This document shows, in pieces, positions 3,225 through 59,822 of a DNA stretch of 64,000 bases. The DNA is taken from the NCBI RefSeq assembly GCF_021535135.1, contig NZ_CP091036.1:3472001-3536000 (forward strand). The letters are read 5' to 3'. Below the pieces are notes generated by a model. It searched no databases, was not told where the DNA came from, and saw only the letters and a program-made list of their open reading frames with translations. Position numbers and translations under genes: made by a program. Each line of letters starts with the position of its first letter. The stretch's first letter is position 1. The stretch is from Antarcticibacterium sp. 1MA-6-2 (lineage in GTDB: Bacteria; Bacteroidota; Bacteroidia; Flavobacteriales; Flavobacteriaceae).

Positions 3225-3999
3225 ATGATTCGATGTATATTCTTTTTTATTTCGGTATTGGGAATCTTTGGGAATGGATTTTCCCAGGATAAAGTAAAAG
3301 AAATTACCTGGCCCGGAGGACAGAAAATAGCTGTAAGCCTTTCCTATGATGACGGTTTAAACAGCCAGTTAGATAATGTGGTGCTAAGCACTGGAAAAGT
3401 TTAATTTAAAAGGATCTTTTTATATTCTGCCAAATGCTCCCTCTCTTTTTGAACGAACAGAAGAATGGAAGGATATTGCCGAAAAAGGCCATGAATTAGG
3501 CAACCACAGTGTATATCATCCCTGTCGTAAATCCCGGCCCGGCAGAGAGTGGGTGCCACGCCATCACGATCTCGATGAGTATAGTTTAGAAAAGATGGTA
3601 GAGGAGCTAACTACTGCCAACACATTTTTAAAGGCGCTGGACGGAAAAACTGAACGCACTTTTACACCGCCTTGTGGAGATCTTATGGCAGGAATTGAAA
3701 AGGAATATATTGAGAAGTTAAGGGAACTTTTTATTGCTTATAAAGGACAGGGAACAGAGACAGGTTTCTCTGTGGTTTGGGCTCCCAATGAGGTGAGTGG
3801 CCGTGAGTTAATAGATTATATAAAAAATTTACCCGCCGGAACTTCCTTAGTAAACATTATATTTCACGGGGTAGGAGGAGATTACCTTACTGTATCTTCA
3901 GAAGCCCACGAGGAACTATTGCAGTTTTTAGCCAATAACAGCAGGGACTATTATGTAGATACCTACTTTAATATAATGAAGTATGCGAATACTCACTGA
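3225..3999 (+). CDS. Polysaccharide deacetylase (CE4/NodB), frame interrupted
   Basis: Metal-dependent deacetylase of the NodB family, about 257 residues once the frame is repaired. I place the start at ATG 3225 because it gives a clean signal peptide ending GNGFSQ; a GTG at 3198 is in frame but adds charged residues in front. Motif 1 is SLSYDDG, motif 2 is the HSVYH metal pair, and motif 3 is FTPPCGD. The frame shifts by +1 at 3384-3388, where the sequence reads gCTAAGc. Family alignment expects Pro-Ala-Leu there, which would be CCGGCACTG, so the original was probably GCCGGC. Removing one base gives exactly 258 codons. The likely substrate is an acetylated surface or dietary glycan. Confidence 0.8.
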
Positions 4000-4395
4000 T
4001 TCATTTTTCCGAACTACCCAAATTATATAAGTTTCTTTTGCAATGCAATCCTCATTTTGGCATCAATAAATCTGTGATTTAATTTTAGAGATTGTGTTTA
4101 AAAGCTAATTAAGGTGCAGATTTGGAACCTTCTAAACACTGTACAAAATTGACGCTTCCGGGACGGGAGTAATTCAGGCTTCGTCCTTTCTTTTCGATTT
4201 CGGTATAAAAGAGAAGCCTTAATCCCAATTTTTGCCATTTTAATGCAATTTTCCCAGTAATGGACAATTTATTCTTTCAACATTAGCTTTAAAACCTTAA
4301 AATTTCTTATTTTATTATCACTTTGTAGGAAGTAAGAGTATTTTTGATCCGTAAAAAGTTCAATTTAAAAAAACAGCGAAAAACCAAGCCGTCTA
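4000..4395. other. Intergenic region upstream of the DeoR regulator
   Basis: No gene is visible. An inverted repeat, AGGCTTC at 4176-4182 and GAAGCCT at 4213-4219, encloses a 30-base loop and could be a weak hairpin. A Bacteroidota-like -7 element is not clear; TTATCACTTTG near 4316-4326 is only a partial match. The regulatory region of the following DeoR gene must lie here. Confidence 0.3.
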
Positions 4396-5160
4396 ATGAA
4401 CACAATAGAAAGACACAAAGAAATAATAAAAAGAATTACTAAAGACGGTCAAATAAAGGTTCAGGAACTTTGCGATGATTTCCAGATCTCTCCTGTAACT
4501 GCCAGAAAAGACCTGAAGCTGCTTGAAGAAAAAGGATTGCTATACAGGATGCACGGGGGTGCAACGCTCAACGATCCTTATGCGACTGACAGGCATGTGA
4601 ATGAGAAGGAAAAGATGTATTCTTCTGAAAAAGTAAAAATTGGAGCTGCCGCAGCCAAAATGGTAAATGCTCACGATTCCATCCTGATAGCCTCGGGTAC
4701 CACAGTTTTATATCTGGCTAAAAATATTCAGCCGAAAGAAAACCTTACGGTAATTACTTCAGCTTTAAATGTGGCTCTTGAACTTAACAAGCATCTGGGA
4801 ATTGAAGTAATTCTTTTAGGCGGAGTTCTTAGAAAACGTTCAGCATCGGTAACAGGATTATATGCTGAAGAAAACCTATCAGATTTCTCCTGCAGTAAAC
4901 TTTTCCTTGGAGTGGATGGGATAGATCTTGACTTTGGGTTAACCACTACCAATGTAATGGAAGCCCATCTAAACCGGAAAATGATAGAAGTTTCTCAAAA
5001 AACCATCGTTCTTGCAGATTCTACAAAGTTCGGTAGAAGAGGCTTTGGTAGAATATGCGGTTTTGATCTTATTGATGAAATTATTACAGATTCCGGTATT
5101 TCAGATTTTACCAAAAAAACTTTGGAAGATTATGGGATTAAAGTGACAATTGTAGATTGA
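4396..5160 (+). CDS. glpR: DeoR/GlpR-family transcriptional repressor
   Basis: A 254-residue DeoR-family repressor. An N-terminal winged helix (about residues 6-58, with VQELCDDFQISPVTARKDL and the RMHGGA linker) is followed by the DeoRC sugar-phosphate-sensing domain, seen in IASGTTVLYLAK and LFLGVDGID. Family members sense a phosphorylated catabolite and release DNA when it binds. The gene converges with the glycerophosphodiesterase and glpFKD operon, ending 43 bases from it. Control of that operon through glycerol-3-phosphate is therefore the natural reading, but it rests on context only, so the symbol is tentative. The frame is intact and full length. Confidence 0.8.
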   Translation: MNTIERHKEIIKRITKDGQIKVQELCDDFQISPVTARKDLKLLEEKGLLYRMHGGATLNDPYATDRHVNEKEKMYSSEKVKIGAAAAKMVNAHDSILIASGTTVLYLAKNIQPKENLTVITSALNVALELNKHLGIEVILLGGVLRKRSASVTGLYAEENLSDFSCSKLFLGVDGIDLDFGLTTTNVMEAHLNRKMIEVSQKTIVLADSTKFGRRGFGRICGFDLIDEIITDSGISDFTKKTLEDYGIKVTIVD

Positions 5161-5202
5161 TCTTTTGATTTCTCTTTTTCAGAAAAACTACAACTTAGAA
5201 CA

Positions 5203-6123
5203 TCATTTTAATTCACTTAGTAAGTGTGGGTAATCGGTTATAATTCCGTCTACTCCCCAACCAATTAATCTCTTCATATCCTCCTGTTCATTTACGGTCC
5301 AGGGAACAAATTTCATCCCATAGGAATGCGCTTTTTCTATAAGTTCCGGAGTCGCCAATTGGAAGTTGGGACTGTAAACCTGGGGAACATATCCTAGCTC
5401 CTTAAGATTCTCCTCGAGGGATTTATTCTTGTTCCCGGTTAAGAAGCCTGTAACTACATAGGGATAGTTCTGGTTTACTTCCTGGATTTGTCTTACATCA
5501 AAGGACTGGATTTGATACCTTTCCGGTTTAAGGCCTTTTTCCTTGATTACATCCATAACAAGTCCAACCAGTTCTTTAGGTGCTTACTGAAAAAATCCAT
5601 CTTTGTCCGGACTTGCCTTGATCTCTATATTATAAATTACTTATGCAATATTTTTTTCAGCAATATAATTTTCCACGGAATCAATTAATTCTGAAAATAA
5701 AGGAATAGAAGTTTTCTCATTTTTTTGTTGAGGAAAGTGTCTATTAGGTTTTGTACCTACATCAAACTTTTTAATGTCCTCATAATTCATTTGATAAAGC
5801 ACAAACTCTGAAGCTTCAGGGATCTCTGAACCGTCCGGCATTAATGAAATCTCTTTATTAATAGTAGCATCATGTGCTACCAGCACCTTTTTATCCTTGC
5901 TGAACTGAATATCCAGCTCAATGAAATTTGCACCATCATCAATGGCTTGTTTCATGGATTTAACTGTGTTTTCCGGTATGAGCCCCCTTGCCCCGCGATG
6001 ACCTTCTTTAAAAAATTCAGGAAAGGATCTTTCTACAATTTTGTCTGGGTCGCTGGCCTTGCAGCTGTTTAAGGATAGAATGACAATTAAGGAACAAACA
6101 GAGGCAATAATACTCGATTTCAT
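5203..6123 (-). CDS. glpQ: Lipoprotein glycerophosphodiester phosphodiesterase, two in-frame stops
   Basis: GDPD family enzyme that releases glycerol-3-phosphate from glycerophosphodiesters, 306 residues. The N-terminus is a lipoprotein signal (lipobox LNSC). The catalytic GHRGARG motif lies near residue 43, followed by the metal-binding ELDIQ and the VAHDATI histidine. Two TAA codons interrupt one continuous frame, at 5641-5643 and 5584-5586 (minus-strand GCATAAGTA and CAGTAAGCA). Restoring CCGG in place of TAAG at both gives IAPVIYNIEIK and FFQPAPKEL, with prolines as expected for the family. The gene follows glpF by 12 bases, so it is probably the last gene of the glp operon. Protein function is secure; the stops are probably artefacts of the sequence. 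Confidence 0.85.
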
Positions 6124-10233: not shown

Positions 10234-13200
10234 ATGAAAAAAACAATTCAAACATTAGTATTAATTTTATTCTGCTTTACCTCAGGATTTGTTTCTTCTC
10301 AGGAACTTGTGGTAAAAGGAATAGTAAAAGACACCAAAGGAATGCCTTTGCCGGGCGCTTCAGTTGTAGTGAAGGGAACCTCTAATGGAACCATTACTGA
10401 TTTTGACGGGAATTTTGGTTTACAGGTATCACAGGATCCTGTAATACTGCAAATTTCTTTTCTCGGTTTTCAGCCTGGTGAAACAATTGCAGATCCAGAT
10501 GACTTTCAGGAAATAGTTCTTACAGAAGACACCAATGTTTTAAACGAAGTAGTTGTGACTGCTTTAGGAATAAAAAGAGAAGAGAAACGACTGGGATTCT
10601 CACAAGCCTCTATAGATTCTGACAACCTCAACCAAACCGTCCCAACGAATTGGTCCTCAGGTTTAAAAGGGAAAGTAGCTAGGTTTAAATATTGTTTCTT
10701 CAGGTTCGGGTCCTTTAAATTCGCAGCAAATTACTCTAAGGGGAAATAACTCGCTTAACCCAAATGGTAACAATGCATTAATTGTTATTGATGGAGTACT
10801 TAGTTAATAATGAAATGACCACTTCAGGTTCCTCAAGTGCCTATGGGGGAAACGATTCTCCTATTGATTATGGAAATGGAATTTCGGATCTTAACGCAAA
10901 CGATATCGAGAGTGTAACTGTTTTAAAAGGTCCCGGAGCAACAGCTTTATATGGAAGTAGAGCGGCTAACGGAGCATTGATTATTACAACCAAATCAGGA
11001 AAAGCTTCTAAAGGCCTTGGAGTTACTTATACTTCTAATGTAAGTCTTGACGTGATACAGCGATGGCCGGATTATCAATACGAATACGGGCAGGGATCAG
11101 GAAAATCTTTTGATGATGAGGGAAATCCGTATTATTCCTTTGGTAGTTCAGAAGATGGTAGTAATACCGGAAGTACCAGTAGTGCCTGGGGTCCACGTTT
11201 TAACGGTCAATATTTTTTTCAATATGATCCTGAGTTAGAAGGACAATCTGCCGAGCGACAACTATGGCAGGCATATCCAGATAACAGAAGAGATTTCTGG
11301 AGAACGGGAGTTACTCTTAATAATAATGTTTCATTGCAGGGAGGTAGTGAAAAAGGAAATATGAGAGCTTCAGTAGGACATCAAAAGAATGAATGGCTTA
11401 TGCCTAATACGGGCTTTGAAAGAATAACAGCCTCCATAAATGCAGATTTCCAGATTTCAGAAAAAATAAAAATTGGTTCTGTAATAAATTACAACAACAG
11501 GAAAAGTGATAACCTGCCGGGAGCTTATTATAACAATGGCTCTATTTCCTATTTTATGATCTTCCAGAACCCTAACATTTCCCTGGACTGGTATCGTCCT
11601 ATTTGGATGCAGGGTCAGGATCAAATTCAAAAGATAGCTCCTTTCAGTTCTTTTATTGATAATCCTTATTTGATTGCTTATGAAGCTACAAACCCTTTAG
11701 ATAGTGATCAAATCGTGGGGAACATTTTTGCTAATATTAATCTTGCTCCAAATCTGGAATTAATGTTACGAACTTCCCTTAATACTTATAGCCAGGATAG
11801 AGCACAACAAAGGCCTTACAGCATCAACTAGGTATGCGCGGGGTTATTATGAATCCCAGGATATAAATAAACAGGAGGTGAATACAGATTTCCTGCTGTC
11901 CTATAACGCTGAAATTTCGAAAAAAATTGGATTTTCCTTCTCGGCAGGAGGTAATGCAATGAGCTATAAATATCGCCGAACAGATGCCTCTGTTGAAGGT
12001 CTTGTAGTGCCGGGGGTATATAAACTTGCCAACGGGATAAACAGTCCAATAATTGCTACTTATGATAAAAATAAAAAAGTAAACAGTTTATATGGATTGT
12101 TATCTCTTTCTTTTGATGATAAAGTTTATGTGGACGTGACCGGAAGAAACGACTGGTCCAGTACCCTGCTAGTAGAAAATAATTCTTTCTTTTACCCATC
12201 TGTAAATACAAGTTTTATTCTTTCAGATATTTTTGAACTTCCTTCTGCCATTCCATATTTAAAATACAGATTCTCTTATGCCCAGGTAGGAAACGATACA
12301 GATCCTTATAAGACGAGCAAATACTACAGCCAGAACGCTTTCCCAAGTTCAGCCACAGTTCCTGCCACTCTTTACAATGCCAACTTTAAACCGGAGATCA
12401 CGACCAGTTACGAAACAGGTTTTGAATCCAGGTTATTTAAGAACAGGATTGTATTTGATGTAACAGCATATCAAACCCTAACAAAGAATCAAATTATATC
12501 GGTTCCCCTGGATATTACCACTAAGTTACAGCTCTGGAGTTTTAAATTCAGGAGAAGTGCGGAACAGGGGACTGGAATTAACTCTCATAAGTCGAATTAT
12601 AGATTCCAATAAATTTAGTTGGAGATCAACACTTACCTGGGACAAAAACTGGAACAGGGTAATGGAACTGGCCGATGGAATAGACGGCCAGCAGGAAATT
12701 GGCTCGGGAGGACAGGCTACTTTAATTGCTAAAGTAGGAGGAACTACCACAGCAGTTTATGGTTATGGTTTTGTAAGATCACCAGAGGGAGAAATTGTGT
12801 ACGATGATAAAGGTCTACCTGCATATCCCGATGAAATTATGTATATAGGAGATGCCAGTCCCGATTGGAATGCTGGTTTGTATAACAGTTTTAAATTTGG
12901 AAATGTCTCCCTTAATGTAATGGTGGACGGACAATATGGAGGAATAATCTATTCTCAAACCCATCATAAATTAATGGAACAGGGGAAACTTCGCTCAACC
13001 TTTAGAGGACGGGAAACAGGATTTATAGTTGGGGAAGGAGTTGTTTTAAATGAAGACGGAACTTACACTCCAAATACTTATGAAGCCGTTACACCAGATT
13101 GGTATAGAAGATTTTACCGAAGGGCAAATGTTGAATCCAATTCTTTTGATGCTTCTTTTATAAAACTAAGAGAGGTGAGCCTGTCCTATGCCCTTCCTAA

Positions 13201-13405: not shown

Positions 13406-14841
13406 ATGAAACATTTAAATATTTTATTAGCGGGTTTGGTAATTCTATTTTCATCCATTGCCTGTACTTCAGATTTTGAAGAGATAAATGAAGATCCTAA
13501 CCGGATAGCCGAAATTAGCCCCGGGACCTTATTAAATCCAATCATATATGGTCTTGCCGATCATAACGCTTAGCAGGGCGGCCAGTATTACTTTTGATCT
13601 AATGCAGGTGGCCTTACCTTTTCCCAGTGTATCGGGAGGTTTGCACAGGTATGACGTGAGCCCGAATATTGGAAACTCCTCCTGGTACTGGTATTACAGG
13701 TGGCTTAACAATGTGAAAGAAATGAGACTTGCCGCTGTTGAGGCAGAAGATCCTAATTACGAGGCTATCGCTCTTACTTTTCAGGCCTATTTGTTTGCAC
13801 AGTTGACAGATACTTTTGGGCTTAGTTCCAATGACCGAAGCGGTGATGGGAGAAGAGGGAAATTTCTACCCAAAATTTGATTCCCAGGAAAGCATATATG
13901 AAAAGATCCTGGCAGATCTTGAAAGGGCAAATTCGCTCTATGACCCGGAGCAAAATATGGTTTATGCTGAAGATATCCTTTTTCAAAATGATGTTGAAAG
14001 TTGGAGAAAATTCACAAATTCCCTGCATATGAGGCTGTTGCTTAGAATTTCCAACAGAGAGGAAGCAAATTCTTTTGAAAAGCTGGCCATGATGATCGGG
14101 AATCCTGAAGAATATCCTGTTTTTGAAAGTACAGAGGAATCTGCCATTCTTGAGGTAACAGGAGTTACTCCCAATGTTTCCCCATGGGGAAGGCCTCAGG
14201 ATTTCAGGTTGAACGTCGCAATGGCAGAATTCTTTATTGATAATCTTAACCAACTTGAAGATCCAAGAAGACCAATTATAGCTACCCTGGCACGGGATCC
14301 TGAGAGTGAACCCATAGGTTATAAAGGGATCCCAAGTGCGTATGAAGGTGCCGAATCACAATTTGAATTTAATCCCTCTACTCTTAATATTGAGCAGGTT
14401 GAAAATCCTATGCAAATAATTATTCTTCCTTATTCTGAAGTAGAATTTATTAAAGCTGAAGTCGCACAAAGAGGATTCATACCAAATCCTGAAGAGCATT
14501 ACAGGGCAGCGGTTACTGCAGCTATAGAACAATTGGAAGCCGAAGTTCCTGAAGGTTATTTTGAAAATGAATACGCAGCTTACGATGGAACTTTAGAACA
14601 AATAATGCTTCAGAAATATTTTGCACTATATTTTGTAGATTATCAGCAATGGTTTGAATACAGGAGAACAGGATTTCCTGAGCTTCCAAAGACTGAAGCT
14701 ATGGAAAACAACGGGGAAATGCCTGCACGTTTCTTTTATCCTACAGATGTTCAAATAAGCAATGCTGAAAATTACCAGGAAGCAGTACAAATGCTTGGGG
14801 GTAGTGACGATATTAACACCAAAGTTTGGTGGGATCAATAA
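13406..14841 (+). CDS. SusD/RagB-family lipoprotein 1, two frameshifts
   Basis: SusD-family glycan-binding lipoprotein that caps the SusC channel, 477 residues after repair. The ATG at 13406, 9 bases after the SusC stop, gives a lipoprotein signal with lipobox SIAC. The frame shifts +1 at 13569-13573 (gCTTAGc) and 13821-13825 (gCTTAGt). Restoring CCGG at the second gives FGPVPMTEA, the conserved SusD motif; at the first it gives HNAGRAASITFD. The C-terminal half matches SusD_RagB-like proteins (PYSEVEFIKAEVAQRG; QKYFALYFVDYQQWFEYRRTG). Removing two bases leaves exactly 478 codons. The ligand is unknown. Confidence 0.9.
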
Positions 14842-14850: not shown

Positions 14851-16446
14851 ATGAAAAGAATTTTTGCCCTACTCTTTCTGATGTTTATACCTGTAATGCT
14901 TGTTGCTCAAACAAAGATACAGGGGCAGGTATTTAGAGATGCTAATAATAATGGACGATTAGATCCTTCAGAAAAAGGCCTGAATAAAGTGGCTGTTACC
15001 AATGGAAGAGTGGTAACTCTCACCGATAAGAATGGTAACTATAATTTAGAAATTAAGGAGGGAGACATAGTTTCGGTAATAAAACCGGCAGGTTATATAC
15101 TTCCCGTAGATGAAAACAATTTACCACAGTTCTTTTACATATATAAGCCAAAAGGTTCTCCGGAATTAAAATTTCCGGGAGTGGCTCCTACGGGAAAATT
15201 ACCTTCATCGGTTAATTTTCCTTTAATTCCTTCAGTACAAAAAGAAGAATTTTCTGCTCTATTTTTTGGAGATCCCCAGCCATATACAGCTCAGGAGGTG
15301 GAATATTTCAGAAAAGGAATTGTTTCAGAAATAGAAAAAAGTGAAAACATCCTCTTTGGACTTAGCCTGGGAGACCTGGTGGGGAACGACCTTGATCTGT
15401 TCAAACCCTATGTTAAAGCAATTGGAGAAGCTGATACTCCCTGGTTTAATGTCATAGGAAACCATGACCTTAATTTCGACGCAGTGTCAGACGAGTTGGC
15501 CGATGAGACATTTGAAGCTCATTTTGGTCCTGCAAATTTTGCATTCAATTACGGTAAAGTTCATTTCATCATCCTGGACGATATCCTTTATCCCGATCCA
15601 CGGGATCAAAAAGGATATTGGGGTGGTTTAAGAGAAGATCAACTGGAATTTATAGAAAATGATCTTAGGTATGTTCCTAAAGATCATTTAATTGTATTGG
15701 CTTTTCATATCCCTCTGAGCGAACCGGGGAGAGGTGATTCCTTTAGAGATGAAGATCGAAAGGAGTTGTTCAGGATTTTAAAGGATTATCCTAATACCCT
15801 TTCCCTTTCTGCTCACACCCATATCCAAAGGCAGGATTTTTTAACTGCTGAAGATGGGTGGCTTCAGGAAAAGCCGCATCATCATTATAATGTGGGAACA
15901 ACTTCCGGAAACTGGTATTCGGGAAAACTGGATAACCAGGGAATTCCTTATTCCACAATGGCAGATGGAACACCTAAAGGCTATGCTGTCATAAATTTTG
16001 ACGGGGCCAAATATTCTATAGATTATAAGGTTGCGGGAAAACCTGCGGATTACCAAATGAATATTTTTGCTCCAAAGGTTGTGGCCAGAGGGAAGAATAC
16101 GAAAGCAGGAATTTTCGTGAATTTCTTTATGGGGAGTGAAAAAGATACAGTTATGTATAGGGTCGACGATGGCGAATGGAAAAGGATGCAAAAAGCAGAA
16201 AGAGCAGATCCCGCATTCATTGAAAACGTGATGGAATGGGATCTAAAAACAGAGTTGATGCCGGGACGACGACCTTCTGATCCTGTTATTTCAACACATC
16301 TCTGGCGAGGTTCTATTCCTGTAAAGCTGGAGGAAGGTGAGCACATTATAGAAGTTAAAGCGACAGATATGTTCGGCCGTACCTTTACACAAAAAGAAAG
16401 TTATATTTTAAAAGATCCGGTGGACTTACCTGTTTCTAAAAAGTGA
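14851..16446 (+). CDS. Secreted calcineurin-like metallophosphoesterase
   Basis: A 531-residue exported phosphoesterase. Signal peptide to about residue 20 (VMLVAQ). Residues 25-110 form an SdrD/Cna-B-like or carboxypeptidase-regulatory-like domain (GQVFRDANNNGRLDPSEKG). The metallophosphatase core follows with all five motif blocks: FGDPQPY, SLGDLVGND, VIGNHDLNFD, AFHIPLS and SAHTHIQRQ. A C-terminal beta domain ends the protein. The gene follows SusD1 by nine bases, so it is probably co-transcribed and acts on phosphate esters brought in by that system. The frame is intact even though one unaltered ACCGGC lies inside it at 15084-15089. The true substrate is unknown. Confidence 0.85.
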   Translation: MKRIFALLFLMFIPVMLVAQTKIQGQVFRDANNNGRLDPSEKGLNKVAVTNGRVVTLTDKNGNYNLEIKEGDIVSVIKPAGYILPVDENNLPQFFYIYKPKGSPELKFPGVAPTGKLPSSVNFPLIPSVQKEEFSALFFGDPQPYTAQEVEYFRKGIVSEIEKSENILFGLSLGDLVGNDLDLFKPYVKAIGEADTPWFNVIGNHDLNFDAVSDELADETFEAHFGPANFAFNYGKVHFIILDDILYPDPRDQKGYWGGLREDQLEFIENDLRYVPKDHLIVLAFHIPLSEPGRGDSFRDEDRKELFRILKDYPNTLSLSAHTHIQRQDFLTAEDGWLQEKPHHHYNVGTTSGNWYSGKLDNQGIPYSTMADGTPKGYAVINFDGAKYSIDYKVAGKPADYQMNIFAPKVVARGKNTKAGIFVNFFMGSEKDTVMYRVDDGEWKRMQKAERADPAFIENVMEWDLKTELMPGRRPSDPVISTHLWRGSIPVKLEEGEHIIEVKATDMFGRTFTQKESYILKDPVDLPVSKK

Positions 16447-16489: not shown

Positions 16490-17165
16490 TTATTTTAAGT
16501 AAGCCTGGAGGATATTAGCCCATACATGATATCCTTCAGCATTTAAATGGAGACCTTCTTCAGTATATTTTTTATTCAGTTTCTTCTCCTCATCGAGAAA
16601 ATGTGGGTGTAGATCTATAAGATTTACCTGCTCCTTTGCAGCCAGCTCTCTTATTCCTTCGTTGACTTCTTTTATCACGTGGTCTTTGTTGTAATGGTTT
16701 TTATAGCGGGTAAAGCTATTATTCACTAAGCAGGAGGGTTTGAACATAAAGTTGAGTCTCCGGGCTCGCTTTTTTAATTTGCTGGATTATCTTTTCATAA
16801 TTCCGCAGTATAAGTTCTGCAGGTACATTTCTGGATATATCATTTATCCCGACCAGGAGGAAAATTTTTGAGGGTTTACCTTCAGTTACTTCGTCCAGAC
16901 GTTGCAAAATTCCAAAGCTGGTGTCACCAGAAATTCCGCGGTTTTTTGCAGTAGGTAACTGCAGTAATTCATTCCAGTCAGTATACTCCGTAAGGCTATT
17001 TCCTAAAAAAATAATATCTGTTTTAGAATCAGGATAGCTGCGAAACTGCTCCACTTTTAGAGAGTAGGTTCGGGGACGGTAAACAGTATCCATTTCCTCT
17101 GTTTGAGCGTAGGAAAAAGTGAAGAAAAAAGAAAAGATCAGGGAAGCGGGGAGGTGAATTTTCAA
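16490..17165 (-). CDS. SGNH/GDSL-family hydrolase, frame interrupted
   Basis: Exported SGNH hydrolase (lipase, esterase or deacetylase class), 224 residues after repair. Signal peptide ends TFSYAQ. Block I is FLGNSLTEY with Ser as the nucleophile, block II Gly is in GISGDTSFG, block III is LVGINDI, and block V is GLHLNAEGY with the catalytic His. The frame breaks where the minus strand reads ctgCTTAGTgaat (plus strand CTAAG, 16726-16730). Restoring GCCGGT gives TLLPVNNSF, the usual LPV element after block III. Removing one base leaves 225 codons. It converges on the phosphoesterase gene, and may remove acyl or acetyl groups from the glycan taken up here. Confidence 0.85.
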
Positions 17166-20606: not shown

Positions 20607-23307
20607 ATGAACCTGTTATATAAAAGTTTACTTCTCTTTACCTTTTTTTCTATAACGTTTTCGCTATTGGGCCAGAATCATAATTTAGCTAAGGATGCAG
20701 AAATAACCGCGTCAAGCGTTTTAAGTCCGGAAAAGTCTGCTGATAAAATTGCTGATGGAATTATTGGTGTGGAAGATATGGGGGAATGGGCTTGTGAAGG
20801 AATGAAAACAAGCTGGGGATATATTGAATTGCCCTGGATCAAAATGGAATGGGAAGAACCTCAAATCATTAACCGTATCGTTCTATATGATAGGGCGACA
20901 GAAAAAGAAAATGCCGCGAGTGTAAAAATAGTATTTAGTGATGGAAGTGAAATTTATGTTAGGCAGATTCCCGGAAATGGAAATGGGAAAGAAATTACTT
21001 TTGAATCTAAAACAATAGAATGGCTAAAAATAGAGGTAACCGATGCTGACGGTAAAGATATCGGGTTTTCCGAAATTGAAGTTTTTGCTGCTCCCCAACA
21101 TACAAATGATCCTATTGACTGGGTAGATCCTTATATTGAATCCAGCAGGGGCCGCTACATATTCTTCATTACTGGTTCCAGACCCTTCGGAATGGCATCA
21201 GCTGCCCCTATGACCCGCAATAAGAACCAGTATGGTGGAGGTTATAACTATAATTCTGAATATATCCTTGGGTTTCACCAAATCCATAGTTGGATGCTGG
21301 GAGGTCTTGAGGTTATGCCTGCTCCAGCCCATATAGATCCTACTGATGGAAGGCAAAGCTGGAAGTCCAGGTTTAGCCATGAAGACGAAATTGTAAGCCC
21401 CGGCTTTCACAGGGTTTTTCTTCGCGATCACAATATATGGGTAGAAAACACTACTACAGAAAGGGTAAGCTTTTATAAGTACTAGTTTACAAAAAATATG
21501 GAAGCCCAAATTATCACCAATCTTTCTGGTCTTGTCAATAATAATGTTATGACAAATGCTGAAGTGAAAAAGGTAAGCTCTACTGAATTTGAAGGTTCTT
21601 TTAGTACGGTGGACCGCTTCTGGGGAGGACCTAAGGAGGTTAAAGTGTTTTTTGTGGCTGCTTTTGATAAACCCTTTAAGCAGATGGATGCGTGGGATGA
21701 ACAGAAGCGTATCCGGGACGTAAAGGAGGTCAAAGGAGATAGTCTTGGGGTTGTTAATCTGTACGATGTAAAGGCAGGAGAGGAACTAAAAATGAAAATT
21801 TCTATTTCATATACCAGTATTGCTAACGCACGAAATAACATGGAGGCAGAACTTCCTCACTGGGATTTTGATAAGGTGAAAAAAGATTCCAGAGATATAT
21901 GGAATGACTGGTTAGGAAAAATTCAGATTAAGGGAGGTACCCACGAGCAAAGGGTCAAATTTTACACTGATCTTTGGCACGTGCTACTTGGAAGGCAGAA
22001 AATTAATGATATTTCAGGTGATTATCCCGACCGTACAACCGGGAAAAGAGAAGGTAATTTCACCGATGCCGTTTTTAAAGTAAAAACATTACCAAAAGAC
22101 GAACAGGGGAATTTAAAGTTTAATATGTACAATTCTGATGCCTGGTGGCTTTCACAGTGGAATTTGAATATCCTCTGGGGCCTGGCCTGGCCGGAAGTCA
22201 TGGATGAAATGTCTGCATCCATGGTACAATATGCAGAAAATGGCTACCTGCTGCCAAGGGGTCCATCAGGGGGAGGTTATTCTTACATAATGACCAGTTC
22301 TCCAGCCACTAATCTTATTGCTGCCACTTTCCAAAAGGGACTTCTTACCAAAATTGATCCAGCTATAGCCTATGAAAAAGTTAAGCAAAACCTGCTGCCT
22401 GGTGGGATGCTGGGAGATAAAGAGGATATTAAATTCTATACTAAAAATGGCTATTGGCCGGGAAATGCAGGTATTACATTAGAAGCTGCGTTTCAGGATT
22501 ACGCTCTATCACAATGGGCAAAGAAAATAGGAAAGAAAGACGATGCTAAATTCTTTGAAGGTCGTTCAATGGGCTGGAAAAAGCTTTTTAAAGAAAGCCA
22601 GAACCTGGTCTTTCCGAAGAACAGGGAAGGGGAATTCATGCATGACGATCCCCTATCAGGAGCAGGTTGGGTAGAGGCTAATGCCTGGCAGGCAACCTGG
22701 TCAGTTTCACATGCTATTCCTGATCTTGCTGCGTTAATGGATGGGGAGGAAGTACTGTGTGAGAAATTAAACCACGCTTTTGAAATGGCCAAGGATGATG
22801 ACTTTGTGTTTGGATACAGTGAGGGTTATTTAAGCTATGCAAATCAACCCGGCTGTTCAAATGCCCATGTCTTTAATCATGCAGGTAAACCCTGGTTGAC
22901 CCAGTATTGGGTGAGACGGGTCAAAGAGCAGGCTTATGGTGGAACTACTCCGGAATTAGGATATGGAGGGCATGATGAGGACCAGGGACAAATGGGAGGA
23001 GTGAGTGCTTTAATGGCTATTGGAATTTTCAGCCTTAAAGGAACTGTCGATAATCAGCTTAGTTTATGATATTACCAGCCCCATCTTTGATGAGGTGGTG
23101 ATAAAATTAGATCCCAAATACTATACTGGAGACACCTTCACGATTAGGACCCATAATAATTCCAGGGAAAATATGTACATCCAGAGTGCCACTCTTAATG
23201 GTAAGGGTCATAAAAAATATTGGTTTCCACACGAATTATTTGCAAAGGGTGGAGAACTGGAGATTTATTTAGGTCCTGAACCAAATATAAAATGGGGGGC
23301 AAAGTAA
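20607..23307 (+). CDS. GH92 alpha-mannosidase 2 with discoidin-like N-domain, interrupted
   Basis: Second GH92 enzyme, 899 residues after repair, with an N-terminal F5/8 type C (discoidin-like) carbohydrate-binding region (about residues 25-170: ADKIADGI, IEVTDADGKDIGFSEIEVFA). The start ATG 20607 gives a signal peptide ending LLGQ. GH92 begins at PIDWVDPYIESSRGRYIFF and contains GGHDEDQGQMGG. Two breaks occur. At 21482-21485 taCTAGttt puts a TAG stop in frame with no length change; CCGG would read YRF. At 23058-23062 gCTTAGt shifts +1; GCCGGT gives DNQPVYDITSP, the conserved GH92 proline. Removing one base leaves 900 codons. Different from GH92-1, it may act on another linkage. Confidence 0.92.
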
Positions 23308-41827: not shown

Positions 41828-42679
41828 ATGGACATTAAAGATATTTCGGGGACTACCAGCCTAAGTAATGGTGTAAATATGCTTAGGTTCTTGGGCTGGG
41901 AGTTTATAAAGCGAGAGAAGGCCGGGAGGTGATCGATGCGGTGCAACATGCTCTGGATGCAGGCTATAGGCATATAGATACGGCCAGTTTTTATGGAAAT
42001 GAAAATGGTGTTGGGGAAGCTGTTAAAACTTCAGGTATACCAAGGGAAGAGGTTTTTGTCACTACAAAGGTTTGGAACGATGATCAGGGGTTTGATTCCA
42101 CTCTTAAAGCATTTGATAAATCTCTGGCTGAGCTTAAAATGGATTATTTGGATCTATACCTGATACACTGGCTATGTGCCTGGTAAATATCTCGAAACCT
42201 GGAAGGCTCTTGAAGAACTCTACTCACAGGGAAGGATTAGAGCCATAGGAGTTTCCAATTTTCTTGAACATCATTTAGAAGATGTTATAAATAATTCCGA
42301 AATAACACCCATGGTCCTGCAAAACGAATTTCATCCCAGGCTTGTGCAGCAGTCGTTACTGGATTACTGTAAAAAAAGGAATATACAATATGAGTCCTGG
42401 TCACCTTTAATGAGAGGAGAGGTTTTTAATTTGGATCTTCTTAAAGAACTGGCAGAGAAATATAATAAGTCCATTGCGCAAGTAGTCATACGGTGGAATC
42501 TTCAAAAAGGAGTGGTTACCATTCCAAAAAGCGTACACCGGGACAGGATCTTTGAAAATGCAGATGTTTTTAATTTTAAAATTTCCAAAGAAGATATTCA
42601 GCAAATAGATGCTCTGGACAGGGAATACCGAACAGGAGCAAATCCCGATGATTTTATGCGACATTTTGGAAGTAAATAA
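41828..42679 (+). CDS. Aldo/keto reductase, two frameshifts
   Basis: NADPH-dependent aldo/keto reductase, 282 residues after repair. It starts at ATG 41828. Catalytic Asp and Tyr lie in HIDTASFYGNENG, Lys in VFVTTKVWND and His in LDLYLIHW. RAIGVSNF and VVTIPKSVH complete the cofactor site. The frame is broken at 41882-41887 (CTTAGG, +2; GCCGGT gives NMPVLGLGVY) and 42172-42176 (CTATG, +1; GCCGGT gives IHWPVPGKY). Both corrections restore the near-invariant prolines of the family, and the total minus three is 283 codons. It probably reduces a sugar or keto-sugar aldehyde; substrate unknown. Confidence 0.9.
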
Positions 42680-45454: not shown

Positions 45455-48400
45455 ATGAGGATCTTTTTTAAGATAATAACAATTACCATTTTCGTGGTGT
45501 TAGGCGGGTGTAAGAAAGAGGAGACTGGTGAGCTAGCTCAATCTTCAGAAACCACCATCTTTAGACCTATTTTTTCGACAAGTTCCGCAATCGATTTCAG
45601 TAATAATTTAACCGAAAATGATTCGCTTAATTATTTCACCTATTCCTATATCTATATGGGAGGAGGTGTCGCTGCTGGTGATTTTAATAATGATGGTTTA
45701 CAGGATCTGTATTTTACAGGAAATCAGGTGCCAAATAAGCTTTATCTCAACAAGGGAAATCTTGTTTTTGAAGATGTAACTGAGGCTGCGGGAGTTTCCG
45801 GAGACGATAGATGGTATACCGGGGTAACGACGGCCGATGTAAATGGAGATGGTTTCCTTGATATATATCTTTCTGTAGGAGGAAAGTTCGGGCCAAAGAA
45901 TAACCAGCTTTTCATTAATAACGGAGATGGTACTTTTGAGGAAAGGGCTAAAGAATATGGATTGGATGATCCAGGTAATAGCGTGCAGGCTACCTTTTTT
46001 GATTATGATAAAGATGGAGATCTTGATGTGTACATTGCCAATTATCCTCCTACAAGATTTGATTCACCCAATTTTATCTACGAATTTAAAATGAAAAATG
46101 TAAGTGATCTGGAATCTGATCATTTATTGCGAAACGATAGAGGGAAGTTTACAGATGTTACTAACGAAGCGGGAGTACGAAGCTTTGGGCTTTCCCTATC
46201 TGCAACCGTTGCCGATCTAAATAACGACACCTGGCCTGATATTTATATTTCGAACGACTTTAGCTCTCCTGATTTCTTGTATATGAACAATGGAGATGGT
46301 TCTTTTCGGGAGGTTGTAAAGGAAGCAACCTCACATACCGCATTTTTTGGTATGGGTGTGGATATCGCTGATTATAACAATGATGGGAATCTGGATATTT
46401 ACCAGGTAGATATGTCTGCCAAGAAGAACAGAAGGAAAAAAGCCAACATGGCAAGTATGAACCCGGAATTGTTCTGGAGCACAGTTGATGCTTACTTTCA
46501 TTACCAGTATATGCAAAATGTACTTCAAACCAACACAGGTGTTTTTGAGGATGAAAATCCTTTTTTTGCTGATTTTTCCCGTATAATGGGAGCTTCTTCT
46601 ACAGATTGGAGTTGGGGGCCTTTGTTTGCAGATTTTGACAATGATGGTCTTAAAGATCTATTTGTAACCAATGGTACCAGAAGAGAGATTAATAATAACG
46701 ATTACTTCAATAATCTAAAGGATACCAGGATGGTAGAAGAAAACCAACTGGAAAAAAGTCTTAACATTCCTTCTGAAAAAATTGATAATTTCATGTTCAG
46801 GAATAACGGAGATTTATCCTTTGAAATAGCAAATAAAAAATGGGGAATAGAATATGAAGGCTGGTCTAATGGGGTAGTTTATGCAGATCTGGATAATGAC
46901 GGCGATTTGGAAATTGTCACTAATAACATTGATGACAGGGCCTCACTTTTTGAAAATACCAGTTCAGAAAAAAATAATTTCGTGCAGATAGAATTTGAAG
47001 GTAATGAGCAGAATGTTTTTGGTTTGGGAACAAGAGCTTATGTAAAGACAAATGAAATGGAACAAATGCAGGAACTTACCCTTACACGAGGATTTCAGTC
47101 ATCTGTTGCTCCTCAACTGCACTTTGGTTTGGCACAAAATGAGCTTATTGACGAAATTAGAATAGTATGGCCAGATGGTAAAGCTGAAATTTTAAATGAC
47201 GTTAAAGCCAATCAAAGATTAACTTTTAGTTATACAAACGCAGCTGAAATAATGGAGGAGGTGCTTTCTAAACCTGAACCCTTGTTTACAGCTATAAACG
47301 ATACTATTTCTTTCCCGCGTCACTAAGCATATAGAAAATGAATACGACGATTTTAAAGAAGAAATTCTTCTGCCTCATCGTACCTCTACATTTGGTCCCG
47401 GTGCTGCAGTGGGTGATTTAAATGGAGATGGTAAGGATGATTTCTTTATAGGAGCAGCATCTAACTATGAAGCTTATGTTTACTTCCAGACTGCAACAGG
47501 ATTTGAAAAGCAGCAAAGCACAGCCTTTCAACAGGACAAAAAGTTTGAAGACTTAGGTGCCTTAATTTTTGATGCAAATGGGGATGGGCACAATGACATC
47601 TATGTAGTTAGTGGAGGAAACGAATTTGCTCCTGATTCTGAATATCTGCAAGACAGGTTGTACCTAAATGATACTAAGGGTAATTTTCAAAAAGATGAGT
47701 CAGCACTGCCGGAAATGCGCACCAGTGGTTCCAGAGTTTATGAGGCCGATTTTGATAAGGATGGAAAAAAGATCTATTGGTATTAGGACGCCTGGTTCCC
47801 GGAAATTATCCTATACCTGCAAAATCTTATATCCTGAAGAACATAGGAGGAAATGGCAAAGCAAAGTACCGGGATATCACCAAAAATATAGCCCCGGAAT
47901 TTCAGTCACTGGGAATGGCCACCAGTGCCGAGATCGTAGATATTGATAATGATGGATGGGAGGATATTGTGGTTGTAGGAGAATGGATGCCCATAAGAGT
48001 TTTTAAAAATTCAGAAAAAGGTTTTAAAGAAATTACAGAAGACCTGGGCTTAGCCGATACTACCTGCTGGTGGTGGAGTATTAAAACAGGGGATTTCGAT
48101 GGTGACGGGGACCAGGATTTTCTCGTGGGAAATTTGGGCCGTAATTACAAATACACGGCCAATGAAGAAGAAACCTTTGATATCTACTTCAATGATTTTG
48201 ATGAGAATAATAAACAGGACATCGTGCTAAGTTATTATAACGAGGGAGAAAAATTTCCTTTACGGGGAAGAGAGTGTTCTTCGCAACAAATGCCAGGGAT
48301 AAAGAACAAATTTCCCGATTATCAATCATTTTCAACTGCCACGCTGGAGGATGTTTATACTGAAAAAAGCCTTGAGAACTCTCTTCATTACCAGGTGAAA

Positions 48401-48924: not shown

Positions 48925-51900
48925 ATGAGGGTAAATTACTTTAAGAGTAGTCTGTTTTTCCTATGCTTTATGTGTTTTGGATTCCTTTCGGCACAACAGG
49001 TTATAACTGGGACAGTTACTGATGCAAATGGGCCGCTTCCCGGAGTGAATGTGATTCTGGAAGGGACAACGGTAGGTACTACAACAGATTTTGATGGAAA
49101 TTATTCACTGCAGGTGAATGAAGATCTAGGGCCCGATTCCAGGCTTGTCTTTAGCTATATTAGCTATGAAACAAGAGAAGTGGCAATAAATGGCCGATCT
49201 GTTATTGACGTTAATATGGTTGCCAGTGCAGAGGCATTGGACGATGTTATAGTGGTAGGTTACGGTACCCAGTCAAGAGCTGAGGTTACGGGAGCTATTT
49301 CATCTATTGATGCCGATGAGATCAACAGTTTACCTGTTGCCACTGCAGAGCAGGCTTTACAGGGAAGAGCTTCTGGTGTGACTGTAATCAACTCCGGTGC
49401 TCCGGGTAACACGCTTAGCAGTAAGAATTAGAGGACTTGCCTCCCCTAATAATAATGACCCATTATATGTTATTGATGGTGTTATAGCGGGTGGACTAGG
49501 TAGTCTTAATCCAAATGATATTGAGAACATTCAGGTATTAAAAGATGCTTCTACTACTGCTGTTTACGGCTCGAGAGGAGCGAATGGAGTAGTACTGGTT
49601 ACAACAAAGTCGGGAAAAGCATCTCAAAAAGCCCAGCTAAGCCTAGACCTTTATTCAGGTGTTAATTTTAATAGTAACCGATTTGATTTATTAAACCGGG
49701 AACAGTATATACAGTACGCAAGAGAGATTACAGACACTGATCCTGAACGTCTTACCAATCCAGAATATGCTGATTTTATTGATAATGAAACCGACTGGCA
49801 GGATGAAATATTTAGAACGGGTATCTTAAAAAGTATTACCCTCGGTTTTTCAGGAGGTAATGAAAGTAGTAATTTCAGGTTTTCAGGGGGTTACCTTAAT
49901 CAGGAGGGAGCTGTTATTGAAACAGAATTTGAGAGATTTAATTTTAGATCTAATAGCAATGTAAATTTTGGAAAACTTAGCTTCGGCCAAACCTTGAATG
50001 TTTCTTTTACAGCACAAAATCCTGAACGAGCTGATGGTGGAAGGTCAATTATAGAACATGCTATTAAATCTGCACCTTACTTACAGGTTTACAATCCTGA
50101 TAACAGAGGCGGTTTCCAGGGGCCAAATTCTGCATTGGATGGTCAGGATGCTGCGAACCCTGTAAGGGTACAAACTTTAGGTAATGCTCTAAATAAAGGT
50201 CTGACTGTTTTAGGAAGTCTTTTTGCAGAATATGAAATAATCGATGGTCTTACTTTTAGGAGCCAGGCAGGTTTGGATTATTACAAATTTAATAATGATA
50301 GTTTCATACCTTCTTATAACGATGACAGCAGCGGAGCCACACATCAATCTGGTTTTGCACAGATCACCAAAAACAGTGGTACAAACCAATCTCTTACTCT
50401 TACAAATAGCCTTACCTACAAATTTGATGTTGCAGATTTACACAATTTTGAAATTTTGGCTTTAGCTGAAGATCAAAGAATTGATAGTGAAAGCCTGGAT
50501 GCAAGTAGCCAGAACCCTATTACTGATGATGTAGAAGAAGTTTCTTTAAATCAGCCTGGATTATCTTCAGCGTCTTCAGAATATAGAAGAGTAGGATTTT
50601 TAGGTCGGTTAAATTACAACTTTGACCAAAAATATCTTTTAGCGGGTTCTTATCGTAAGGATGCATCTACCCGTTTTGGTGCCAATAACCGCTGGGGTAG
50701 TTTCTGGTCTGTGGCTGCAGGATGGAATGTGGCAAAGGAGAGTTTTATGGAAGATTCAGAAATTAACAATTTAAAAATTAGAGGTAGCTGGGGTACAACC
50801 GGAAATGATCAAATAGGAAATTATCTTTATTCTTCAACATTAGTTACAAGTTTTATATACCCTTTTGGAGGCGCAGCTTTTCAGGGAACTACTGCCGAAG
50901 GACTTGCTAATCCAAACCTTAAATGGGAAGAGGTGACAATGAAAAATATTGGAGTGGATTTAGGAGTATGGAACAATGCGTTTACCCTATCCGTGGAGTA
51001 TTATATTAATCGTAGTGATGATCTTCTATTTGACTTGCCTCTTCCACCAACATTAGGTTATAATCGTCCTACAATAGCTTCTAATGTAGGATCTGTGGAG
51101 ACTAAAGGTTTTGAAGCTGACTTTGGCTATAATGATTTTGAAGGGGATTTTACCTGGTCTGCCAATCTAAATTTGGGAACCAGTAAAAATGAGGTGTTAT
51201 CAATTGGAAATTTAACTCAGGTCCAGAGTGGATTTTTCGAAAATGAGAATTTAACAAGGATCGCTCCGGGAGAAGCTTTATTTCACTTTTATGGTTTAAG
51301 AACTGATGGGATCTTCCAAAATCAGGCAGAAGTGGATGCAGTATATACTGCGAATCCCGATCAAACAGTGGTGCAACCGGGAGATATTCGATTTGTGGAC
51401 ATTAACGGAGATGGTGATATAAATGCAGCAGACAAAACAGTAATAGGAAATCCATACCCTACACTTACAATGGGACTTAATTTAAGTGCTCAATATGGTA
51501 ACTTCGACATTTCCCTGTTCATTCAGGGAGCTTATGGCCAGGATATTTATAATACCAATCTTTATGACCTTGAAGGTATGCCAAGGTTGTTTAACAGTGG
51601 AGTGGCTGTGCTGGACAGATGGACAGGAGAAGGAACGTCAAACACAATTCCAAGAGCCCTGGGTGCGCCTCAAAATCTTAATGCTTCAGATCGTTTTATA
51701 GAAGATGGTTCTTATACCAGATTGAAGAACTTGAATATTGGATATACTTTTGACGAAGCTGTATTTGGAGAATCACTTTCTAATTTGAGAATTTATTTAA
51801 GCGGTCAAAATTTGATTACGTTAACTGACTATTCAGGGTTAGATCCCGAGATTGGTGTTGATAATGTTTTACTCCAGGGTACAGGAGCTATAGGTATAGA

Positions 51901-54598: not shown

Positions 54599-55948
54599 CT
54601 ATTTTTCTTTATTAGTAAAGTATTTACATGCAAATTCAATGAAATAAGGCCAGTTAGGCACCACTGTATGACCACCTCTGTGCTCCCGAAATGCTATATC
54701 GCCTTCCAGAAGAGCTTTATGATCAGTAGGATATTCTGTAGTTCCCATTCCATTTTTCCCAAGAAGTTTATATACAGGAGCAGCATGTACATTGCTCAGG
54801 AACATTCCTTTGGCATCTATCCATTTTCCTTCTACCTCGGGATCTCCGGAACTAATAAATACTGGCCGTGGCGCGGCCATTGCTATGAGTTGATGGGCAT
54901 CAACTCTAAGCAGATCGTTAGGTGTAAGAGGTCCGGCATATTTTATGAAATTTGGAGCAAACCAGTGATATTCGGCAGAAGAGGCCAGGTTTTCTACCTG
55001 CTCCCCATACTCCCGTCTTAATATTTTTGTCCCACCTGCTCCCGAGGAACCTATAAATCCAATTGCGAAACGAGGATCATAGGCATAGGTCACAATAGCA
55101 GCTTTTCCGTACCTGGATAAACCTTCTATTCCCACCCGGTCTTCATCTACATCGGGATCAGTTTCAAAATAATCCAGAGCTCTGCTTGCTCCCCATGCCC
55201 AGGCTCGAAGCGTTCCCCAGTCATCCAGTTTTCTTGGCTGTCCTTTATTTACAAGTCCTATAATTCCTTCCCTTAGACTAAGCACCATTGTCTGCCTGGT
55301 AACTGGTAGGAATCAGGATTGCATAGCCCCAGCCTTTTTCAAGTAACTGTTCCTGCCAGGATTTACCTTCAGGAACAGTCCGGGGTATGTGGGAAGGCCA
55401 GTTCCATCCAAATTCCATTATAACTAAGCACAAGTTTATTTGCTGTTGCGGGAGTGGTGAGAGTTAGTTCAATTTCAACTTTTATTTCTTGATAAATTGA
55501 ATTGTCAACCCGTCCCAATAATTCTTTCTGCGTTACAGGATGCCCCCCAATAACTGTATCTTTTCTGCTTAGTCACTATCCAGTGTACCTCAGGAAGCTC
55601 TGCGGGAACCCGTCCATAAACCTCTCTGTCAAAATCTTCTTTAATTTCGGCCCTCCTTCGTTCCCAATCCCTGGGAGTTTTTACTTTTGAACCATCTTTA
55701 AAAACTAAAGGATCCGGCAGGCTATCGTAGGGAGAAGCTTTTGTCTCATCAGAATTTGCTGCGTTTGGAGCTTCGGGATTACCAGATGGACCCGACCGCA
55801 ATTCACTAATGTTCAGCTTTTCCATCATTAATTTATGATCTTCGCTGCTTAGCCTATTTATACTATCCCTGAATTTTTGCGAAGGCTGAGAGAAGGACTG
55901 GAAGGTACCAATTAGAAAAAGTATCAGGAAATAATGTATTCTTATCAT
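54599..55948 (-). CDS. CE15-type glucuronoyl esterase, three frameshifts
   Basis: Exported alpha/beta-hydrolase of carbohydrate esterase family 15, which cleaves the ester between glucuronoxylan and lignin. Repaired length 448 residues. The signal peptide ends SFSQ. The N-terminal part has PDPLVFKDG and REVYGRVPAELPEV. The nucleophile Ser is in GIEGLSRYGKAA, with GSSGAGG and GDPEVEGKW further on and the catalytic His in EHRGGHTVVPNWPYF. All three +1 breaks are at RCCGGY: plus-strand CTTAG 55568-55572 (IVTGRKDTVIGG), CTAAG 55424-55428 (KLVPVIMEFGW) and CTAAG 55278-55282 (DNGAGLREG). Length minus three is exactly 449 codons. It supports a xylan specificity for this locus. Confidence 0.9.
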
Positions 55949-58269: not shown

Positions 58270-58690
58270 TTTCTTCTTTTTCCAAGGAGAGAGTTTTTTT
58301 TAAAAGTTTTCGGGATTAAAAGGGGTAACTGTAACGATGCTTATAATCTCTGAACTCCCCGCAATCGCTTGTTAAATTAAATGTGGTTCCTGTCTGGCTG
58401 AATTTGGTATTATTAAACATTTTTAAAAAAACAAAGCTGATAAAACATTTGCTTTATCAGCTTTAATTTTTAGACAGATATTTCTACCAGATCATTGTTC
58501 TGGGGAAGTGCTTCTAAGGGAAAAGGATAAGACTTCTTCTGAGGGAGCTATTCCCATTCCTTCCACTCTCAATTTTGCTGAAGGATCATTCCCTTCTGTT
58601 TTAGATTTGGTATTTCACCTGCCAAAACCGGAAATCGAAAAAGTGTCCTTATATAGAATCAAATAGACCCTTTATAAAGACACTTTTAAG
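58270..58690. other. Convergent intergenic region with terminator
   Basis: A 421-base gap between converging genes. It holds a strong hairpin terminator (58433-58464) and a weak operator-like sequence, CGCAATCGCTTGTT at 58360-58373, which matches CGNAANCGNTTNCG at eight of ten fixed positions. I see no reading frame with support. Confidence 0.4.
58433..58464. terminator. Bidirectional hairpin terminator
   Basis: AAAGCTGATAAA (58433-58444) pairs perfectly with TTTATCAGCTTT (58453-58464) around an 8-base loop. On the plus strand it is followed by AATTTTTAG, and on the minus strand by a long T tract, GTTTTTTTAAAAA. It can serve both the DUF255 gene and the minus-strand GH43/xyl transcript. Confidence 0.75.
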
Positions 58691-59822
58691 CTATTGATTA
58701 TCATTTGCATAGGAAGTAATAGTTTCTATACTACCGTCTTCCTTATGTTGTAGTTCTGCCATTTTCATACTTCTTAAATAGGTCTTACCTCCTGAAAGTG
58801 AACTGTCATGGTAGAAGAGATACCATTTACCTTCAAATTCTACAATTGAATGGTGATTGGTCCAGCCAAGCACGGGTTCTAATATTACCCCCTGATAAGT
58901 AAATGGGCCATAGGGGCTGTCGCTTAGTGGCATAAGCAATATTATGTGTATCACCTGTTGAGTATGAGAAATAATAGGTGTCGTTATATTTATGTACCCA
59001 CGCGGCTTCAAAAAATCTTCTTTCATTATCTCCTGTGCTTAGAGGATTTCCGTCCTTATCCAAAATTTGTACATCCCGCAGTTCTTCAGCAAAACCGAGC
59101 ATATCATCACTCATGCGGGCCACTTTGGGACTTAGGGCAGGTTCATCATCTGCTGGATAAACATCTTCTTCGCCCTGATATTCATTATTACGGTACCGTT
59201 GCAGCTGGCCACCCCATATACCGCCCAGGTACATGTAATATTTCCCATCTGTATCTTTATAAACTGCGGGATCTATACTATAACTTTTTGCTATTGGTTC
59301 TTTTTGAGCAGTAAACGGTCCTGCAGGAGAGTCACTTGTTGCAACGCCAATTCTAAAGATATCCTTTTCATCTTTTGCGGGAAAATAAAGATAGTATTTG
59401 CCATTTTTTTCTGCTGCATCTGGAGCCCACATTTGTCGTTTAGCCCAGGCAACATCTTTTACATCAAGTACCACCCCGTGATCTGTTACTTTTCCTCCAA
59501 TACTGTCCATAGAGTATACGTGATAATCTTTCATATCAAAGTGAGCTCCAGTGTCATCTTCAGGAATACCTGAATCCCAGTCATGAGAAGGATAGATATA
59601 TATTTTTCCATCAAATACGTGGGCCGATGGATCGGCTGTATAATTATCTGTCACTAAGGGTTCCGAAGCGAATTTGGGTAGGGTATCGTTAGAAAGATTT
59701 GTGGTGTCTTCTGGAGCTCCTTCGGTCTGGCTTGAATTATTTTCATTTTTGCAACCTGTAATTGCAAGAATTGACAAGGTGAACAAAGCGGATTTGTAAA
59801 AGGGAGTTTTTTTCTTTTCCAT
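58691..59822 (-). CDS. GH43 xylosidase/arabinofuranosidase lipoprotein, one frameshift
   Basis: Glycoside hydrolase family 43, 376 residues after repair, single propeller. The N-terminus is a probable lipoprotein signal (ITGC) and a low-complexity acidic linker. Base Asp is in NYTADPSAHVFDGKIYIY, the second Asp in SIDPAVYKDTDGKYYMYLGG, and the acid Glu in FFEAAWVHKYNDTYYFSYS. The frame shifts +1 where the minus strand reads acTAAGCgac (plus CTTAG, 58923-58927); ACCGGC gives YATGDSPYGPF. Removing one base gives 377 codons. Shorter than the 565-residue GH43 at 40033 and lacking the C-terminal sandwich, it probably has a different linkage preference. Next upstream on this strand is xylA. Confidence 0.9.

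Follow-up and report, generated by a model that had tools for sequence, protein, structure and literature searches.

Why should a single stretch of bacterial DNA hold one broken gene after another, and are these genes broken in the cell or only in its assembly? The stretch in question, hereafter the window, comprises 64 kb (C1:3472001-3536000) of the genome of Antarcticibacterium sp. 1MA-6-2, which is assembled as one contig of 4,383,004 bases at 97.25% completeness, and its gene content consists mostly of carbohydrate-utilization genes of the Bacteroidota type. Among named organisms, Antarcticibacterium arcticum, of the family Flavobacteriaceae, gives the closest match to part of the RpoB sequence (96% identity), and its genus is presumably marine. 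An original prediction, made from the letters of the window alone, placed nearly all of the breaks at 25 sites where the hexamer RCCGGY (R, purine; Y, pyrimidine) had been lost, and favored a misread base modification over mutation as the cause. The data presented below make it very probable that 5-methylcytosine (m5C), placed at RCCGGY by the strain's own methyltransferase, was misread when native DNA was sequenced on a nanopore platform, and that the living strain carries whole genes.

Counts of the four CCGG classes within the window set RCCGGY sharply apart: only 2 copies are present, compared to 78 of YCCGGR, 72 of RCCGGR, and 55 of YCCGGY, and compared to an expectation of approximately 31.6 under an order-2 Markov model. 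The scarcity is not local. Across 400 kb sampled elsewhere in this genome (20 stretches of 20 kb each), RCCGGY occurs 6 times, while the same three sister classes occur 443, 329, and 374 times, and the whole genome holds 62 copies (42 ACCGGT, 19 ACCGGC and GCCGGT together, and 1 GCCGGC). Each of the 15 same-genus genomes holds hundreds of copies, with 282 to 1166 ACCGGT and 81 to 739 GCCGGC sites per genome; expressed per 100 kb, RCCGGY stands at 1.7 here, at 77.5 in the relative G001, and at 114.5 in the relative G011. The motif is thus nearly absent genome-wide while its sister motifs and the relatives are normal, as the original prediction implied. When ACCGGT was compared to its reversed control, this genome had the lowest ratio among 40 genomes (42 vs. 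904). ACCGGT is scarce in some of the more remote members of the order as well; the fewest sites among these are in G035 (13 vs. 148), which has the next-lowest ratio, leaving aside the 0.3-Mb genome G039 (5 vs. 16). Among 41 surviving ACCGGT sites that were inspected, the left neighbor is A or T in 36 and the right neighbor in 37, which suggests that sequence context decides which sites come out correct.

We also compared the 4-, 5-, and 6-base cores found between R and Y in this genome with those of the relatives. Among 4-base cores, depletion is far strongest for CCGG (z -15.8). Enrichment is strongest for CTAAG/CTTAG among 5-base cores (z 6.7) and for CTTAAG among 6-base cores (z 8.0), but cores unrelated to the motif are nearly as enriched (AAATT, z 6.2; CATTAG, z 7.8), and the ranking of enriched cores is therefore weak evidence when taken alone. 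The flanks matter for the 5-base form: relative to the pooled rate of G001 and G011, CTTAG/CTAAG is found 1.94-fold between R and Y, but 0.99-fold between Y and R. As a side observation, RCTGGY occurs at 1.16 times the relatives' rate and YCTGGR at 0.89 times.

Essential genes and 16S rRNA copies

The breaks extend to genes that no cell can lose. In this genome both rplB and rpoB are split, whereas all 11 relatives in which a match was found carry each gene whole; 4 relatives with incomplete genomes gave no match. The regions around the two genes, which we take to be the S10 and rplKAJL-rpoBC operons, were aligned to 10 or 11 relatives, mostly at 80-93% identity, with G009 left out of the rplB region, where its contig ends. 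Within 22,821 coding bases of these regions, there are 15 frameshifting insertions or deletions (indels) private to this genome, a count that excludes ten further private indels outside framed open reading frames (ORFs). We then asked whether the residues found in the relatives could be encoded by RCCGGY in frame at the points of breakage, scoring this on the relatives' alignment columns alone. At 13 of the 15 frameshifts, the residues of at least nine of ten relatives are compatible with the motif, and at 12 of the 15, RCCGGY itself is present in at least one relative. By comparison, among 2,996 random coding positions, 8.2% were compatible when half of the relatives were required to fit and 6.8% when nine tenths were, and 19 other motifs fit only 0 to 6 of the 15 frameshifts.

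The fate of sites present in the relatives points in the same direction. None of the 27 RCCGGY sites that G011 carries in these regions is kept here, compared to 27 of 55 sites of the other CCGG classes. When the coding sites of G011, G003, and G001 were pooled, the sites being partly common to the three, 0 of 58 RCCGGY sites were kept and 19 of 58 were altered in length in this genome, whereas 65 of 157 sites of the other classes were kept and 8 of 157 altered in length.

The three copies of the 16S ribosomal RNA (rRNA) gene provide a comparison internal to the genome. At two places in the gene, RCCGGY is present in the relatives' copies (8 of 8 at one place and 5 of 8 at the other), and at both places all three copies here read otherwise and disagree among themselves. 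By comparison, none of the three copies has lost any of the 8 other CCGG places that 5 or more of the relatives' copies share. Counted as readings over the three copies, none of 6 is kept at RCCGGY, compared to 24 of 24 at the other CCGG places. Up to alignment column 1650, 16 places deviate from otherwise unanimous relatives, and besides the two RCCGGY places the copies are unlike at only one of them. Two side observations concern the same operons: the 16S-23S spacer also differs among the genome's three rRNA operons, and 16S copy 3 differs at one place off the motif.

Because no cell survives the loss of rplB and rpoB, and because the 16S copies are unlike at precisely these places and one other of the 16 compared, the breaks are consensus errors. 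On this point, the preference of the original prediction for a misread modification over mutation was well placed.

The methyltransferase and nuclease cluster

A modification at RCCGGY calls for an enzyme, and the genome holds a single C5 methyltransferase of family PF00145, at 3944960-3946141 on the minus strand (E 5.9e-48), with the catalytic PC motif lying in GGPPCPDFS. No match to PF01555 was found in the genome, in a search whose controls were positive in 11 of 14 cases. The methyltransferase gene overlaps, on the same strand, a gene near 3.944 Mb encoding a type II restriction enzyme of 359 residues (PADLOC REase_II, E 6.9e-132), relatives of which carry the PF27126 label. Upstream of the methyltransferase/restriction pair are genes for an integrase and for a Vsr mismatch nuclease, and Vsr is a companion of m5C methyltransferases.

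To place the methyltransferase among its kin, we considered its four best plasmid hits, one of which is an unannotated record. The other three, from Nostoc sp. HK-01, Moraxella osloensis, and the plasmid pBsrF30 of Geobacillus subterraneus CPW16, directly adjoin enzymes annotated as Cfr10I or Cfr10I/Bse634I family. Over the 140 residues of the recognition domain, identity to the enzyme studied here amounts to 77 residues for Nostoc, 72 for Moraxella, and 51 for pBsrF30. Strain CPW16, which carries pBsrF30, has m5C at RCCGGY (PMC8112702). By homology, the methyltransferase is a fitting candidate for RCCGGY specificity. In contrast, the best stretches of its 44 matches among solved structures all stop at or before residue 211 and leave the greater part of the recognition domain uncovered. 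Related methyltransferases are present in nine genomes that each hold 491 to 8480 ACCGGC/GCCGGT sites, so that carrying an enzyme of this kind is not enough to eliminate the motif.

A Cfr10I/BsrFI-like restriction-modification pair had been proposed as the thing to look for. An RCCGGY-type methyltransferase with a restriction partner was indeed found, but no Cfr10I/Bse634I domain was detected in the partner: a Pfam-A scan of the nuclease to E 1 gave only DUF2701 (0.16). A PDB sequence search with the nuclease gave no matches to E 1. A search of the whole genome for PF07832 (Cfr10I/Bse634I) was also empty, but its 14 controls were equally silent, so that this result carries no weight as evidence of absence. 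The PF27126 nucleases are probably a family of RCCGGY-cutting enzymes unrelated in sequence to Cfr10I. We observed in addition that a downstream ORF similar in length and in where it starts, overlapping or adjacent, is present at loci L091-L094 and L096-L098.

Broken genes in the window

All 25 sites of the original prediction carry the letters it gave, each preceded by R and followed by Y. A break was regarded as fully supported where it rests on alignment to three relatives or on consecutive halves of one Pfam model. The predicted breaks were upheld fully at 14 of the 25 sites and from one side at 4, while the other 7 are putative. The sites are given below in window coordinates, with no strand assigned.

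Between 10.3 and 16.45 kb, the window could be aligned to three relatives (G007, G010, and G001) at approximately 70% identity, and 7 indels private to this genome were found, 6 of which match predicted sites; the seventh, at position 13401, is intergenic. Each of the six is a private +1. Four misread sites lie in one gene for a SusC-type receptor, at 10679..10683 (CTAGG), 10799..10803 (CTTAG), 11828..11832 (CTAGG), and 12521..12525 (CTAAG). The other two, both CTTAG, lie in SusD-like sequence: 13569..13573, where the aligner placed the indel at 13580, 7-11 bases off, and 13821..13825, where RCCGGY is present in one of the three relatives and where the break is also flanked by matches to positions 26-111 and 111-415 of the SusD-like_2 model.

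At the remaining fully supported sites, successive parts of one Pfam model lie on either side of the break. In a glycerophosphodiesterase (GDPD) gene, positions 1-94 and 128-243 of the GDPD model fall in two ORFs around the CTTA sites at 5583..5586 and 5640..5643, which demonstrates at least one break; the second, at 5640, is presumed from the same two pieces. A GDSL lipase gene is divided at 16726..16730 (CTAAG; Lipase_GDSL_2 1-111 and 108-177), and GH92 glycosidase sequence is divided at 21482..21485 (CTAG; GH92N 1-130 and 132-236) and at 23058..23062 (CTTAG; GH92 1-393 and 396-463). The same holds for an aldo/keto reductase at 42172..42176 (CTATG; Aldo_ket_red 18-111 and 117-290), a SusC-type receptor at 49414..49418 (CTTAG; Plug 3-45 and 47-107), and a GH43 glycosidase at 58923..58927 (CTTAG; GH43 11-221 and 242-287).

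Support is one-sided at 3384..3388 (CTAAG), where the downstream frame of a polysaccharide deacetylase begins at Pfam position 28 of 124; at 39905..39909 (CTAAG), where the Hydrolase_like match of a HAD hydrolase stops at 57 of 75; at 41882..41887 (CTTAGG), where the downstream frame of an aldo/keto reductase begins at model position 18 of 291; and at 55278..55282 (CTAAG), where the GCE_fung match of a glucuronyl esterase-like gene begins at 76 of 231. The putative misread sites, recognized by their R and Y flanks, are three in SusC-type receptor sequence, at 24541..24546 (CTTAGG), 25019..25023 (CTTGA), and 26445..26448 (CTTA); one in an esterase gene at 35016..35020 (CTTAG); one in an FG-GAP/UnbV protein at 47323..47327 (CTAAG), with repeats on either side; and two in the gene region of 55278, where there is no Pfam match, at 55424..55428 (CTAAG) and 55568..55572 (CTTAG).

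Twenty-two of the 25 sites carry one of 12 enumerated replacement forms, those at 5583, 5640, and 26445 reading CTTA instead, and the seven commonest of these forms, again between R and Y, are found at 22 places that the original prediction does not list. RCCGGY is still read as such at 15084..15089 and 23446..23451. Two breaks in the window lie off the motif, near 19110-19147 (GH92 gene) and near 27214-27241 (SusD gene); both adjoin single-base runs, as expected of homopolymer length errors, another typical nanopore fault. An Rfam scan of the window gave no matches. Outside the subject of RCCGGY, we noticed that CCAGGA/TCCTGG is also below its Markov expectation (371 vs. 529 in the window and the 20 other stretches), that RTCGAY occurs in this genome at about half of the relatives' rate, and that CATATG is depleted in the relative G001 (32 vs. 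77 expected, counting both strands), perhaps through restriction avoidance.

Weighing the explanations against known systems

The sequence of events that we consider most probable is as follows. The C5 methyltransferase of the type II restriction-modification cluster would methylate RCCGGY, and native DNA would have been sequenced by a direct-reading method, in all likelihood that of Oxford Nanopore. If, as we presume, the base-calling model had no training on this mark, the consensus would miscall nearly every RCCGGY, often as the longer CTTAG, CTAAG, CTAGG, or CTTAAG, and reading frames would be broken about once per 1.5 to 2.5 kb.

Several observations weigh against this account. Insertions such as CTTAG and CTAAG, on which the original prediction needs refinement, make up no more than roughly one third of the deficit: the four insertion forms (CTTAG +17, CTTAAG +5.5, CTTAGG +5, and CCTAG +3 per 100 kb) cover only about 30 of about 94 sites missing per 100 kb, and the remaining two thirds must be other miscalls or real differences. 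Two of the 15 frameshifts around rplB and rpoB do not fit the motif (1 of 10 and 3 of 10 relatives compatible), and at the six aligned sites of the window, RCCGGY itself was found in any of the three relatives at only one. With regard to the enzymes, two homologues of unknown specificity nearly match pBsrF30 in their recognition-domain identity (48 and 46 of 140), and the adjacent nuclease is without a Cfr10I/Bse634I domain. Finally, relative to G011, synonymous substitutions are found at 13 of 23 coding RCCGGY sites, compared to 11 of 40 sites of the other classes.

This synonymous excess, along with the share of the deficit that the listed insertion forms leave over, would be accounted for if selection against restriction had already cost the true genome a good share of its RCCGGY sites, and only the rest were misread in sequencing. 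We consider such a mixed case unlikely. There is no synonymous excess relative to G003 (6 of 17, others 25 of 58) or G001 (9 of 18, others 33 of 59). Moreover, if RCCGGY sites had been retained as sites of the other classes were (22 of 40), about 13 of the 23 would be expected, which is near the 10 that show a change in length or amino acid, and the 13 frameshifts at motif places in 22.8 kb are by themselves as frequent as the Markov expectation (31.6 per 64 kb). Real site loss on top of misreading is possible, but it is not favored.

It is less probable still that the modification at the sites comes from an enzyme other than the C5 methyltransferase found, or is a different mark, such as N4-methylcytosine, a hypermodified cytosine, or a guanine mark. 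The near-complete failure of the motif, with 62 sites left, suggests a mark far from the training data, homology alone leaves the specificity of the methyltransferase unfixed, and modification enzymes were sought through PF00145 and PF01555 only. Set against this, there is one PF00145 gene and no PF01555 gene, and the PF00145 gene resembles RCCGGY-type enzymes. The most depleted form is GCCGGC (1 site), which contains neither A nor T, and N6-methyladenine alone thus cannot account for the signal. A particular variant, which we hold to be similarly improbable, is that the cluster makes or extends an unusual cytosine modification rather than plain m5C; a mark of this kind would explain both the near-total misreading and the many insertion miscalls. 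If it were true, a new DNA modification would have come to light from nothing more than an assembly, and the PF27126 nuclease would be a new RCCGGY cutter of unexplored structure.

That a real mutational process at RCCGGY, such as self-restriction followed by error-prone repair or Vsr-handled deamination, produced true pseudogenes is scarcely credible, although the restriction enzyme and Vsr genes do adjoin the methyltransferase and the insertions resemble repair scars at first sight, since the genes hit are not dispensable (rplB and rpoB, with the coding frameshifts around them), the 16S copies are unlike chiefly at the motif, and the nine genomes with related methyltransferases retain it. 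Deamination was ruled out as a source of the breaks, being unable to insert bases.

Misreading of m5C at RCCGGY, which we prefer, has practical consequences. Ribosomal, RNA-polymerase, and polysaccharide-degradation genes look broken, with an error roughly every 2 kb, and counts of pseudogenes, gene content, or restriction-site avoidance in this genome would mislead. Conversely, an assembly by itself can disclose a methylated motif, where the missing hexamer, the positions of the breaks, and the methyltransferase agree, and the same screen could uncover further such assemblies in public collections. The analysis also points to PF27126 nucleases as probable RCCGGY cutters, for which no solved relative was found by sequence.

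Misreading of this kind has precedents. In a 2019 benchmark of default nanopore models, Dcm motifs accounted for approximately 70% of the errors in the consensus (PMC6591954), and modification-linked nanopore errors have been documented at GCTGG and GCAGC in Listeria (PMC10687267). The Dcm (CCWGG) and Listeria errors are like those found here in affecting a single short motif, with intact relatives and a fitting methyltransferase; they differ in that the motif here is RCCGGY, many of the miscalls insert bases and break reading frames, and nearly every site fails, on a platform that we deduce to be nanopore. A literature search, judged by titles among the matches listed, gave none on basecalling errors at RCCGGY. 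With respect to the mark itself, VchM provides a parallel by description: it places m5C at RCCGGY, at most sites of a genome, but it is an orphan methyltransferase without a nuclease partner (PMC4654547, PMC6555945).

The closest comparison is with the BsrFI system of G. subterraneus CPW16 (pBsrF30). The C5 methyltransferases are alike in their recognition domains, including a block around YGNNEVHLHP. The BsrFI nuclease, however, is annotated as Cfr10I/Bse634I family and lies on the strand opposite to its methyltransferase, whereas the cluster described here has a PF27126-type nuclease whose gene overlaps that of the methyltransferase on the same strand, with a Vsr gene upstream.

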